Below are positions 47,823 to 52,977 of a stretch of DNA of 64,000 nt, piece after piece (the first letter of the stretch is position 1; the number at the start of each line of letters is the position of its first letter). The stretch comes from Gammaproteobacteria bacterium (GTDB lineage Bacteria > Pseudomonadota > Gammaproteobacteria > Pseudomonadales > JADFDG01), in NCBI GenBank assembly GCA_018262975.1, contig JADFDG010000004.1, forward strand, positions 107,961 to 171,960, read 5' to 3'. The notes beneath the pieces are model-generated. The model saw only the letters and a list, made by a program, of their open reading frames with translations, did no database searches and was not told the DNA's origin. Position numbers and translations under genes: made by a program.

Positions 47823-49181
47823 TCAGCCCTCCGCCGCGACCATCATCGACGGCAGCAGTATCGAGCCGACATGCACGTTGCCACGCGGATCGGCGTCGCC
47901 ACCCACCGCCGCGAGGTCGCGGAACATGTCGCGCAGGTTGCCGGCGATGGTGATGCCCGAGACCGGGTGGGCGATGCGGCCGTTGCGCACCGCGAAGCCG
48001 GCGGCACCGCGCGAGTAGTCGCCGGTAACGAGATTGACGCCATGCCCGAGCAACTCGGTGACGACGATGCCATCGCCCATCTTCGCCAGCAGCGCATCGA
48101 AGGTTTCGCCGGTGCCGGTGACGAACACGTTGTGCGCGCCGCTACCGTTGCCGGTGGGCGCCATGCCGAGTTTGCGCGACGCGTACAGGCCCAGCATGTA
48201 ACTGGCCAGCACGCCGTCACGGATGAAGTGCTTGTCGCAGGTGGGCAGGCCGTCGCCGTCGAAGGCGGCGCTGCCGGAATGGCGCGGCAGGCGCGGCTTT
48301 TCCTCGATCTGCAGCCACGAGGGGAACAATTGCTCGCCGAGCTTGTCGAGCAGGAACGAGGAGCGGCGATACAGCGCGCCACCGGAGATCGCCGACAGCA
48401 GGTGCCCGATGAGCGAGGTGGCGATTTCCGGCGCGAACAGTACAGGCATCTGCCCGGTGGCGATCGGCTGCGCGCCGAGGCGCGCCACGGTGCGCGCGCC
48501 GGCCTTGCGGCCGATCACGCCGGGCCCGGCCAGCGCACTGGCATCGCGGTTGCTGTCGTACCAGTAGTCACGCTGCATGTCGTCGCCGTCGCGCGCGATC
48601 AGCACGCACGACAGGCCATGGCGGGTGCCCGGGTAGCCGGCGAAGAAACCGTTGGAGTTGGCATAAACGCGGTACACCTCGTGGGTGTTCACCGTCGCGC
48701 CCTCGGAATTGACGATGCGGTTGTCCACCGCGCGGCCGGCCTCCTCGCATTCGCGGGCGAGGTTGGCGGCGGCATCGGCGTCGATGTGCCACGGGTGGTA
48801 AAGATCGAGGTCGGGAATGTCGCGCGCCAGCTGCTCCGGCGCCGCCAGCCCGGCAAACGGATCCTCGGAGGTATGGCGGGCGATTTCCAGCGCCGCCGCC
48901 ACCGCCTCGCGGATGGCCTGCGGGCGGGTGTCGGAGGTGCTGGCGTGGCCCTTGCGCTGGCCGGCATAGACGGTGATGCCGAAGCCGCCGCTGCGGGTGA
49001 ACTCCACGGTCTCGACTTCACCCATGCGCACCGACAGCGACAGGCCGCGCTCGGCGCTCACCCCCACCTCGGCGGCACTTGCCCCCTGGGCACGGGCCTC
49101 GTCGAGGATCTGCTGGACCAGGGATTCGAGGCGGGGCTTGTCGTCGAGGATCGGGGTGTCGTCTGCGGCAGGGGTGTTCAA
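47823..49181 (-). CDS. pmbA: Metalloprotease TldE/PmbA
   Basis: Partner of TldD in the TldD/E protease that matures peptides such as microcin B17 and acts with CcdA in E. coli. 452 residues. Recognisable blocks: VETVEFTRSGGFGITVYAGQRKGHASTSD, VNSEGA-like IVNSEGATVN, and SGITIAGNLRDMFRDLAAVG at the end. TldE lacks the HExxxH metal site found in TldD, in line with this sequence. TldD is encoded 2.3 kb away (51535-52977). Confidence 0.95.
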   Translation of the reverse strand: MNTPAADDTPILDDKPRLESLVQQILDEARAQGASAAEVGVSAERGLSLSVRMGEVETVEFTRSGGFGITVYAGQRKGHASTSDTRPQAIREAVAAALEIARHTSEDPFAGLAAPEQLARDIPDLDLYHPWHIDADAAANLARECEEAGRAVDNRIVNSEGATVNTHEVYRVYANSNGFFAGYPGTRHGLSCVLIARDGDDMQRDYWYDSNRDASALAGPGVIGRKAGARTVARLGAQPIATGQMPVLFAPEIATSLIGHLLSAISGGALYRRSSFLLDKLGEQLFPSWLQIEEKPRLPRHSGSAAFDGDGLPTCDKHFIRDGVLASYMLGLYASRKLGMAPTGNGSGAHNVFVTGTGETFDALLAKMGDGIVVTELLGHGVNLVTGDYSRGAAGFAVRNGRIAHPVSGITIAGNLRDMFRDLAAVGGDADPRGNVHVGSILLPSMMVAAEG

Positions 49182-49291: not shown

Positions 49292-49819
49292 ATGAGCAAC
49301 GAAATCCCGCCGCTGCCCGACGAACGGATCAGCAAGACCAAGCGCAAGAAGCAGATGCACGACCTGCAGGACTTCGGCGAGATGCTGCTGGAACTGCCGG
49401 CCGCCACGCTGGCGAAACTGCCGCTGGACGAGCGCATGCTGCAGGCGGTAGCCGACTGGAAGAAGGTCCGCAGCTGGGAGGCCAAGCGGCGCCACATCCA
49501 GTACATCGGCCGCATCCTGCGCGAAGGTAACGGCGAGGAAGTGCGCGAGGCCTACGAGATCATCACCGACCCCAGCCGTCTGGCGCGGGTGGAACGCATG
49601 CGCGATGCGTTGATGACCGACGATGAGGCAGTCCAGGCATTCATCGCCGAGCACACCGACTGCGACGTGACGCACCTGCGCCAGTTGCTGCGCAACGCCC
49701 GCAAGGAGCGCGAGGAGCTGGTGAAGCTGCAGGAAGCCGGCACGCCGCCGGGCAACATCCCGAAGAGCGCCAACTACCAGAAGCTGTTCCAGTTCCTCAA
49801 GGAAGTGATGGGCGTCTGA
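49292..49819 (+). CDS. darP: Dual-action ribosomal maturation protein DarP (YjgA)
   Basis: Helical protein that promotes the late steps of 50S subunit assembly in E. coli. 175 residues. RISKTKRKKQMHDLQDFGEMLLELP and RRHIQYIGRILREG are the DUF615 hallmarks. Start ATG 49292 (earlier codons in frame lie inside pmbA antisense). Divergent from pmbA, with REP-like element 4 five bp after the stop. Confidence 0.95.
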   Translation: MSNEIPPLPDERISKTKRKKQMHDLQDFGEMLLELPAATLAKLPLDERMLQAVADWKKVRSWEAKRRHIQYIGRILREGNGEEVREAYEIITDPSRLARVERMRDALMTDDEAVQAFIAEHTDCDVTHLRQLLRNARKEREELVKLQEAGTPPGNIPKSANYQKLFQFLKEVMGV

Positions 49820-49823
49820 GGAG

Positions 49824-49882
49824 GTCGGGGGCATGGCCCCCTCTCTACAACGAGCAGGTAGAGAGGGGGACATGCCCCCGAC
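49824..49882. repeat. REP-like paired inverted repeat, element 4 (GTCGG ends outward)
   Basis: Half-sites 49824-49849 and 49858-49882 with an 8-bp centre. Orientation is opposite to elements 1-3: the CCGAC/GTCGG ends face outward and the TGTAG ends inward. The right half has one substitution (GGGGACATGCCCC). It separates darP from the unknown secreted protein gene. Confidence 0.9.
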
Positions 49883-49896
49883 CGCATTCGCGCCCC

Positions 49897-50985
49897 TCAG
49901 AGGTCGTAGCAACCCGACCAGCCCTGCGCCTTGAAGGCGTTGATGCGCTCGACCCCGCGATCAAACGCACGCCGGATCGCCGCGGCGTCACGGTAATCGG
50001 TGACGTCGCGCCAGTTGGCCCGGTCCACCAGCGACAGCAGCATCACGGTGTTGAGGCGCGACCGGTCGGGTGCGTAGCGCGCCCGCATCGGTTCGAACAG
50101 GCCTTCCCGGAACGCGTGCCCCTCGGGCAGTCCGGTAGCGCAGGCCGCCATCTGCGGCGCGAGCCAGCGCTTGTAGGCCGCCAGCATCTCCGGGTCCTGG
50201 TACCACCCCCGCCAGAAGTAATCCTCGTAGCGGTCCACGGTGGCCTGGCCGATGGCGCAGGCCAGCGCGAGGTCGACCGGGTTGCCGGTGAGCATGGCGC
50301 CGCGCAGGTAGTCGCGCGCCCGCATCGGCTGGCTGGCGCGGTACTCAATCTCCGGGTATTCCTCGACCGACTGCGTGTAACGGCGCGGGTAGGTCAGCAC
50401 GCCGCAGGCGTTCATGCGCGGCTGCCAGGTGAGCATCATCACCGCCTTCGCGAGGATGAACTCGCGCGGGTACTGCTGGTAGGCCGCATCGACGGCACGC
50501 ATCATGAACTCGGCATCCGGCGTCGACAGCGCGATCAGTTGCTCGAAATCGGCGACCGACATCGTCTTGTCCTGCGGCAGCGCCGCCAGCCAGGCGTCGA
50601 TGCGCGCCTTGTGCTCGCGGCGCGCCTGCTCGACCTGCTGCGACTTCTCGACATTGCGCGCATCCTGCTGGGCATTCTCGGCCGCCCACTTGCGATCGAT
50701 CCAGTCGGAATAGGCCTGCGCCGACATGGCGGCGGCGTCGCGCTGCTCCTGTGCGCGCCGCTCGAGTTCGCGGATGAAACCGGGCTTCCCGACCGGCGAG
50801 ATCTTCAGCGTGCCGTCCGGCGCATTGGCCCGCGCCCGCTCGCCCATCGACTCGATCTGCTGGCGGGTGATCGAGTTCATGTAGTTGTCGAAGGTGTCGG
50901 CACGTGCCGGCGCGACGATCGACAGCGCGGCCAGCAGCCCGCCGAGCATGCTCGCGCGCGCAAGGATTCGTTGATTCACCACCAC
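49897..50985 (-). CDS. Secreted protein of unknown function, about 362 residues
   Basis: Not recognised. N-terminal signal peptide (about 29 residues, cleavage after VAPARA). The first third is charged and helical, rich in Arg, Gln and Ala (RAQEQRDAAAMSAQAYSDWIDRK...). The C-terminal two thirds hold four Cys (NACGVL, LACAIG, MAACATG, SGCYDL), probably two disulfides, and several WxxP/W-rich turns. It begins with GTG codons overlapping the end of the upstream gene by about 10 bp, so the two are probably one operon. It is absent from the usual darP-tldD order and flanked by REP-like elements 4 and 5. Confidence 0.75.
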   Translation of the reverse strand: MVVNQRILARASMLGGLLAALSIVAPARADTFDNYMNSITRQQIESMGERARANAPDGTLKISPVGKPGFIRELERRAQEQRDAAAMSAQAYSDWIDRKWAAENAQQDARNVEKSQQVEQARREHKARIDAWLAALPQDKTMSVADFEQLIALSTPDAEFMMRAVDAAYQQYPREFILAKAVMMLTWQPRMNACGVLTYPRRYTQSVEEYPEIEYRASQPMRARDYLRGAMLTGNPVDLALACAIGQATVDRYEDYFWRGWYQDPEMLAAYKRWLAPQMAACATGLPEGHAFREGLFEPMRARYAPDRSRLNTVMLLSLVDRANWRDVTDYRDAAAIRRAFDRGVERINAFKAQGWSGCYDL

Positions 50986-51374
50986 AGGTACCCCGGCTCG
51001 ATGGCGGCACAGACACGGCCGTCCTCGTTGAAGGCGATGTAGGCGCCCTCGTGGTTCTTCGTGCGCTTCTGGTTGTGCGGCAGGTATTCGTAGGTATCGA
51101 AATACCAGACGTCAATGTCGTCGCGCCCGGGTCGCGCGCAGGGCAGCATCCGGGCCTTGGCGCCTTCGCGCCAGCGCTTCTGGATCTTGGCGACCGTGAG
51201 CCGGGTCTTGTCAGCGGGATCGCCCATCAGCAGACGCACGTCTTCCTGGGTGCTGACGCCGGGGACCAGCAGGAAGGTCAGGCGCGAACCGATACGGTCG
51301 GATCCGGCGGACATGGCGGGCATCAGGCCCAGTGACAGCAAGGCCGCCAGGGCAAGGAAACGGGGATGACGCAT
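50976..51374 (-). CDS. Small secreted protein, weakly similar to the SmpA/OmlA (BamE) fold
   Basis: 132 residues. Signal peptide (MRHPRFLALAALLSLGLMPAMSA). PGVSTQEDVRLLMGDPADKTRL resembles the GxST..DV..LLG.P turn found in BamE and related small outer-membrane proteins, and IDVWYFDTYEYLP a following strand; but there is no lipobox Cys at the signal end, so this is not BamE itself. Two Cys (LPCARPG, RVCAAIEP) may pair. First gene of the two-gene operon; GGAA lies 9 nt before the ATG. Confidence 0.7.
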   Translation of the reverse strand: MRHPRFLALAALLSLGLMPAMSAGSDRIGSRLTFLLVPGVSTQEDVRLLMGDPADKTRLTVAKIQKRWREGAKARMLPCARPGRDDIDVWYFDTYEYLPHNQKRTKNHEGAYIAFNEDGRVCAAIEPGYLWW

Positions 51375-51404
51375 CGTGGGGTTCCGGAGGCGTTCGACGG
51401 GGGG

Positions 51405-51432
51405 ATTCTCGCCAACGCGAAGGCGGGTGCAA
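51405..51432 (-). promoter_or_regulatory. Candidate promoter of the unknown secreted pair
   Basis: Minus-strand TTGCAC (51427-51432), 16 bp, GAGAAT (51405-51410). The start would be near 51398, 24 nt before the ATG. A run of nine G/C (51447-51455) lies 15 bp upstream of the -35 and adjoins REP-like element 5. Confidence 0.4.
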
Positions 51433-51454
51433 AGCCCCGTGAAACAGGGGGGGG

Positions 51455-51514
51455 GTCGGGGGCATGGCCCCCTCTCTACAGGAAGCGCGGGTAGAGAGGG
51501 GCCATGCCCCCGAC
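51455..51514. repeat. REP-like paired inverted repeat, element 5 (GTCGG ends outward)
   Basis: Half-sites 51455-51480 and 51491-51514 with a 10-bp centre, in the same orientation as element 4. It stands 20 bp after the tldD stop (minus strand) and upstream of the unknown secreted pair. Confidence 0.9.
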
Positions 51515-51534
51515 CGCGACGGGTCCGCCGCGGA

Positions 51535-52977
51535 TTAACCGCCGGTGCCGCCGACGACGATCTCGTCGATCAGCAGCGTCGGCTGGCCGACACCGACCGG
51601 CACGCTCTGCCCTTCCTTGCCGCAGGTCCCCACGCCGCCGTCGAGCGCCAGGTCGTTACCCACCATCGACACGCGGTTCATCACCTCCGGGCCATTGCCG
51701 ATCAGCGTGGCGCCCTTCACCGGGCGCGTCACCTTGCCGTCCTCGATGAGGTAGGCCTCGGTGGTGCTGAACACGAACTTGCCGCTGGTGATGTCCACCT
51801 GGCCGCCACCGAAGTTGGCGGCGAAGATGCCCTTCTTCACCGAGCGGATGATGTCCGCCGGATCCGATTCGCCGGCCAGCATGTAGGTGTTGGTCATGCG
51901 CGGCATCGGCAGGTGCGCGTAGGACTCGCGGCGGCCGTTGCCGGTGGCAGCAACGCCCATCAGGCGCGCGTTCATCTTGTCCTGCATGTAGCCGGTGAGG
52001 ATGCCGTTCTCGATCAGCTCGGTGCGCTGCGTCGGGGTGCCCTCGTCATCCACGGACAGCGAACCGCGACGGTTGGCCATGGTGCCGTCATCGACGATGG
52101 TGCACAGCGGCGACGCCACCTGCTGACCCATGCGGCCGGCGTACATCGACGAGCCCTTGCGGTTGAAGTCGCCTTCCAGGCCGTGGCCCACCGCCTCGTG
52201 CAGCAGCACGCCCGGCCAGCCGGGGCCGAGCACCACCGGCATGCGCCCGGCCGGCGCCGGTACCGCCTCGAGGTTGAGCAACGCCAAGCGCACCGCCTCG
52301 CGCACGTACGAAGAAGCGCGGTAACCCTCGAGGAACCAGCGGTAATCCACCCGGCCACCGCCGCCGGACGAGCCGCGCTCGCGACGACCGTTGTGCTCGG
52401 CGAGCACCGACACGTTCAGGCGCACCAGCGGACGCACGTCGGCGGCCAGGGCACCGTCGCTGGCGGCGACCAGCATCACCTCGTGCTCGCCGGCCAGCGA
52501 CACCTGCACCTGGGTGATGCGCGGATCCAGCGCGCGCGCCTCGGCATCGAGGCGGCGCAGCAGTTCGATCTTTTCCGGGCCGGCCAGCACGTCGAGCGGG
52601 TTGGCGGCGATGTACAGCGGCGAGGCATGGCGTTCGGCGAAAACCGGCACGCGCTTTTGCTGCCCGGCGCGGGCGATACCCTGCGCCGCCGACGCGGCGC
52701 GCGCCAGGTCCGGCAACAGGATGCTGTCGGAATAGGCGAAGCCGGTCTTCTCGCCGCTGATGGCACGCACGCCCACGCCCTGCTCGATGCCGTGCGAGCC
52801 TTCCTTGACGATGCCGTCCTCCAGCAACCACGACTCGTGGCGGCTCCACTGGAAGTACAGGTCGGCCAGGTCGATGTCGCGGCCGAGCATGCCATCGAGC
52901 ACGCGCGCCAGCGCGGCGCGATCGAGGTTGGCGGGCGCCAGCAGTTCGCGTTCGGCAATCGCCAATGCATGGGTCAT
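51535..52977 (-). CDS. tldD: Metalloprotease TldD
   Basis: Catalytic subunit of TldD/E. 480 residues. The metal site H260-EAVG-H265 (HExxxH) in [18 protein letters not shown] is intact; KNARLMGVA-like [31 protein letters not shown] and [18 protein letters not shown] segments follow. The start ATG overlaps the nit stop (ATGA). The order nit-tldD is usual; pmbA is separated from it by darP and the unknown pair. Confidence 0.96.

Follow-up and report, generated by a model that had tools for sequence, protein, structure and literature searches.

A probable lineage-restricted pair of genes for putatively exported proteins at the tldD-darP junction of a gammaproteobacterial genome

Two overlapping genes, here called g1 and g2, lie between darP and tldD in the window (the whole stretch of DNA analysed, 64,000 nucleotides of a gammaproteobacterial contig), at a junction that is almost empty in related genomes. 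We put at about 70% the probability that they form a lineage-restricted operon for two exported proteins, situated at a permissive convergent junction, and that the REP elements on either side of them were placed independently. This reading draws on what we observed of the gene structure, the conserved neighbours, the rule by which REPs are placed in this genome, a paralogous pair of genes, and the lack of homologues in the genomes sampled. The original prediction had reported two genes for secreted proteins between darP and tldD with REP-like elements at both borders, and this description holds: the genes are overlapping open reading frames on the minus strand whose predicted products begin with signal-peptide-like N-termini, and the elements are inverted pairs of one repeat. 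Along the window the order is pmbA, darP, REP 4, g1, g2, REP 5 and tldD, with the following features.

47823-49181, minus strand: pmbA, with Pfam PmbA_TldD domains; further gene of the conserved row, beyond darP
49292-49819, plus strand: darP (Pfam DarP, E = 7.6e-41); flanking gene
49823-49883, no strand: REP 4, a tail-tail dimer of GTAG REPs between the convergent stops of darP and g1
49897-50985, minus strand: g1, putative exported protein predicted to be helical, 362 aa as listed, without family match
50976-51374, minus strand: g2, putative exported protein of 132 aa with a predicted BamE/OsmE-like fold, without lipobox cysteine
51447-51455, no strand: nine consecutive G immediately ahead of REP 5, upstream of g2
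51454-51515, no strand: REP 5, a tail-tail dimer of GTAG REPs between the tldD stop and the g2 start
51535-52977, minus strand: tldD, with Pfam PmbA_TldD domains; flanking gene, its start inferred from an ATG common to relatives

An addition to a conserved gene row

We looked for darP in relatives from the same order and read the DNA around each copy. All 14 relatives that keep tldD, darP and pmbA together, which come from five families of the order, have tldD and darP convergent, with neither g1 nor g2 between them and a gap of 13 to 463 bp (the distance between the last aligned residues); this statement covers the clustered genomes only, darP elsewhere in the sample not lying beside tldD within 4 kb. 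Because the relatives have so short an interval at this place, the comparison of sequences marks the g1-g2 pair as an addition to the conserved tldD-darP-pmbA row, two genes apparently placed at a junction that is normally nearly empty. The order darP then tldD, which the original prediction gave for Pseudomonas, proved right in substance, since tldD adjoins darP in these 14 genomes. The genome of the window is the sole representative of its family in the sample, and its assembly yielded no SSU rRNA gene. Its DarP shares at most 46% identity with any other DarP sampled in the order.

The same junction has received another gene elsewhere. At L131 4532-4906 and L138 3533-3907, in two genomes from another family of the order, darP and tldD are separated by a gene of 124 aa that is homologous in the two. 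Like g2-g1, this gene is a lineage-specific insert at the convergent junction, but it stands alone, is unrelated to g1 and g2, lies on the darP strand and has no evident signal peptide. Neither of these two genomes contains REPs of the type found in the window. Because a second family has its own gene at this place, we conclude that the site accepts inserted genes in at least two lineages. The g2-g1 pair would thus occupy a site that is normally almost empty and is nonetheless tolerant of extra genes.

A second, paralogous pair in the same genome

About 32 kb from g2-g1 the genome holds a paralogous pair, g1'-g2' (G000:C24:190180-191795), within the following region.

L073 9918-11795 (G000:C24:189918-191795), no strand: g1'-g2' region, with reversed gene order, behind tRNA-Met

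The products of g1' and g2' are 38% and 33% identical to the respective window copies. The two genes stand in the order opposite to that of g2-g1, with frames that again overlap or touch, and the pair begins 186 bp behind the tRNA-Met gene. The nearest REP (185252-185268) is about 4.9 kb upstream, and there is none between the pair and the contig end; g1'-g2' is not a copy of the same cargo between the same bounding repeats, which would be the mark of a REP-bounded cassette. That the two genes have stayed paired in spite of the changed order suggests that the two proteins work together.

Similarity between g1 and g1' is concentrated in one place. Residues 30-64 of g1 (about 50794-50898, minus strand), at the N-terminus of the predicted mature protein, form a 35-residue motif, DTFxxYMNSITRQQIExM...ARANAPDGTLxISP, that is 80% identical to g1', against 31% for the rest of the protein, and within it 34 nt are identical between the two genes. 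The motif may be a docking site or a trace of gene conversion.

In GC content and codon usage, g1, g2 and their paralogues all fall between the 25th and the 70th percentile of genes, and a foreign origin on grounds of composition was rejected. Such native composition counts against a recent import, not against an old one.

One alternative to the preferred reading, which we consider rather unlikely, makes g2-g1 and g1'-g2' slices of an ancestral tandem array or larger island, of which one slice stayed by tRNA-Met and the other reached the tldD-darP junction. This history fits the divergence of the pairs, their distance of about 32 kb, their opposite order and the overlapping or touching frames of both, as well as the stretch of 34 identical nucleotides; the second pair also lies behind a tRNA gene, a common site of integration. 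However, the 10 kb downstream contained no repeat of the tRNA-Met 3' end, an intermediate array is not known, and the composition of the genes is native.

Gene structure and predicted products

In the direction of transcription g2 is upstream of g1, for which three GTG codons are candidate starts. The third (50979) gives a product of about 360 aa and, taken as the start in place of 50985, leaves a probable overlap of 4 nt with g2 (GTGA, 50976-50979), through which g2 and then g1 would be cotranslated as one operon. Judged by eye, both proteins have hydrophobic, signal-peptide-like N-termini, and both would be exported to the periplasm. The run of nine G at 51447-51455 falls in the g2 leader and is a possible slippage site; runs of at least nine G or C occur only three times in the 1.18 Mb sampled.

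The two proteins had been said to belong to no nameable family. This stands insofar as neither matches a named family well, and needs qualifying insofar as g2 and g2' resemble BamE and OsmE. For g1, structure prediction gave a mostly helical model of low confidence (mean pLDDT about 60) that had no usable structural match. Against the Pfam family BamE (PF04355), g2 scored 14.7 bits, below the cut-off of 23.2, and g2' scored 24.4 bits, above it, although a six-frame search gave g2' only 17.3 bits, again below. The model of g2 (mean pLDDT also about 60) found OsmE (4dm5) as its best Foldseek match, with a probability of 0.97 and an E value of 0.11, and several BamE chains were also among its structural matches. 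The likeness to the BamE/OsmE (SmpA/OmlA) family consists in a predicted course of helix, helix and then strands, in which both the initial PGV(S/T)xxxV...GxP and the strand with GRxC at its end are in place. g2 differs in lacking the lipobox cysteine, in having two cysteines that are nearly conserved and a long insertion ahead of the strands, and in being paired with g1. Because neither g2 nor g2' has a lipobox cysteine near the end of its signal-like segment, they are not BamE lipoproteins; a separate, real BamE is encoded elsewhere in the genome (L147, 71.4 bits).

Searches beyond this genome found no homologue of the pair. Profile searches found no homologue of g1 in 369 genomes of the class or 398 of the phylum and no homologue of g2 in 274 genomes of the class, and among the 146 genomes of the order only this one contained homologues of either. 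Homologues were not found in plasmids, phages and viral contigs as far as these were searched, nor in GTDB contigs by peptide patterns, a weak search because the patterns left out the best-conserved motif. Pfam, NCBIfam, PHROGs and PADLOC gave no convincing match apart from the BamE-like g2 and g2'. With searches whose first pass is loose, the absence of the pair outside this genome is likely rather than certain.

As to function, we tentatively propose an envelope-associated complex in the periplasm in which g2, acting as a small BamE/OsmE-like domain, would bind g1; the N-terminal motif of mature g1 may be the point of contact. A bolder version, in which g1 and g2 represent a new protein family whose members are exported and work in pairs as one periplasmic machine (a BamE-like subunit and a helical partner with a strongly conserved N-terminal docking motif) that spread within one lineage as a cassette, with the genes kept together and their order shuffled, seems to us decidedly unlikely. 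An orphan pair that is present twice in one genome and was not found elsewhere in the samples would be a modest, testable case of a lineage-restricted exported complex.

We regard it as very unlikely that g1 and g2 are instead an exported antagonist and its immunity protein, or another conflict module, in which the BamE/BLIP-like g2 blocks its partner. Such a module would agree with genes that are paired at both loci in variable order, have diverged save for one motif and occur in one lineage only, and the weak structural matches of g2 include, at rank 9 (E = 0.65), BtiO, an immunity protein of type VI secretion (T6SS). However, both proteins have signal-peptide-like starts, which injected effectors usually lack; there is no toxin-like domain, there are no secretion genes in the cassette, PADLOC gave no convincing match, and the fold matches are weak.

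The border REPs as members of a genome-wide family

The repeat at the two borders has the consensus RTCGGGGGCATGGCCCCCTCKCTAC (on the other strand GTAG...GAY) and matches about 535 sites in the 3.3 Mb genome. The sequence found in the window had no match in the other 145 genomes of the order (146 examined, including this one). The window has 12 half-sites where 0.26 would be expected. The 1.18 Mb sampled contains 222 half-sites, grouped in 131 clusters, and the reversed-sequence control 10. Adjacent REPs in this sample form 91 pairs (59 HH, 10 tail-tail and 22 tandem).

These clusters settle behind genes. With gene limits from a simple gene caller, 113 3' ends and 83 5' ends face a REP cluster; the distance is at most 30 bp for 81% of the 3' ends (median 18) and for 35% of the 5' ends. 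A REP is present at the 3' end of 94 of 823 genes and at the 5' end of 20 of 823, and clusters occur in tandem (61), convergent (26) and divergent (11) contexts. Successive clusters are no more than 1.7 kb apart in 36 of 122 cases, and among about 120 inter-REP intervals, 28 hold exactly one gene and 20 exactly two.

The family is of the GTAG type, and its closest known counterpart is the GTAG REP superfamily, of which 24 families have been published, with its RAYT transposases (Di Nocera et al. 2013, PMC3733652). In both, the repeat is a short palindrome rich in G+C and ending in GTAG (CTAC when read from the opposite strand); it is present in hundreds of copies, as HH and tail-tail dimers, at sites just behind the 3' ends of genes, and a RAYT gene is flanked by the same repeats. 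Here the single RAYT gene in the genome, for a Y1_Tnp protein (45.6 bits; L077 9369-9935, G000:C25), lies between HH REP dimers at L077 9349-9401 and 9940-9992. The points found in this genome are thus the GTAG-ended palindrome, the high copy number, mostly outside genes and near 3' ends, the HH and tail-tail dimers and a cognate RAYT flanked by REPs; the family differs in that its exact REP occurs only in this genome among the 146 of the order.

In published genomes, GTAG REPs in a convergent context lie next to both 3' ends (<20 bp), and unidirectional ones lie close to the 3' end of the upstream gene at a variable distance from the downstream gene (PMC3733652). REP 4 is 3 nt from the darP stop and 13 nt from the g1 stop, and REP 5 follows the tldD stop by 19 nt and precedes the g2 start by 79 nt; REP 4 fits the convergent pattern, and REP 5 the unidirectional one, in textbook fashion. 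The elements do sit at the borders, as had been noted, but so exact a fit is the rule for this repeat throughout the genome, where its place is directly after stop codons.

Both elements are inverted pairs with the GTAG ends inside, i.e. tail-tail dimers. As RNA, REP 4 is predicted to fold into a hairpin of -55 to -56 kcal/mol (z about -9 to -11.5) and REP 5 into one of -55 to -59 kcal/mol. Aligned directly they are about 80% identical over 50 nt, and their similarity ranks fifth among the 45 pairs of tail-tail dimers. The same orientation that had been ascribed to them carries little information, since each is an inverted pair and reads almost alike on both strands: direct alignment does score better than reverse (45.5 against 40), but the difference rests only on the spacer of 9-11 nt, and the spacers differ. 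An old duplication of one REP may have given rise to both, as the spacers align better in the direct sense. Tail-tail dimers are a minority of pairs, yet they are found at both borders, a weak counter-point to independent placement; a tail-tail cluster next to another occurs twice in 122 cases, against 0.7 expected.

Recombination of REP 4 with REP 5, whether homologous or mediated by the RAYT, is highly improbable as the way in which the pair arrived, or could depart, as a composite mobile unit: although the rarer tail-tail dimer at both borders, the identity between the two and a RAYT gene among hundreds of REPs would suit such a process, the 3'-end rule alone predicts both REP positions, the common homology extends over only about 60 nt with differing spacers, the two are not clearly each other's nearest match, REPs are missing next to the paralogous pair, and a family that lacks these REPs has an extra gene of its own at the junction. 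The suggestion of REP recombination or REP-assisted insertion was therefore not borne out, either by the placement of the repeats or by the intervals between them, 20 of which contain two genes, and the paralogous pair and the insert in the other family speak likewise against a REP-assisted cassette. As ordinary members of a family of hundreds of copies that settles behind genes, the repeats are poor evidence for a REP-borne arrival of the pair, and a joint origin of REPs 4 and 5 is not needed for anything seen.

Under the preferred reading of independently placed REPs, the two dimers would be separate, ordinary insertions, presumably mobilised by the single RAYT, that settled just behind stop codons, where strong hairpins can protect or end transcripts. 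REP 4 would then serve darP and g1, and REP 5 would serve tldD. The appearance of a cassette between repeats can thus arise where REPs accumulate behind stops and convergent junctions tolerate new genes. The stretch around the RAYT gene is itself dense in REPs, with 13 clusters in 20 kb.
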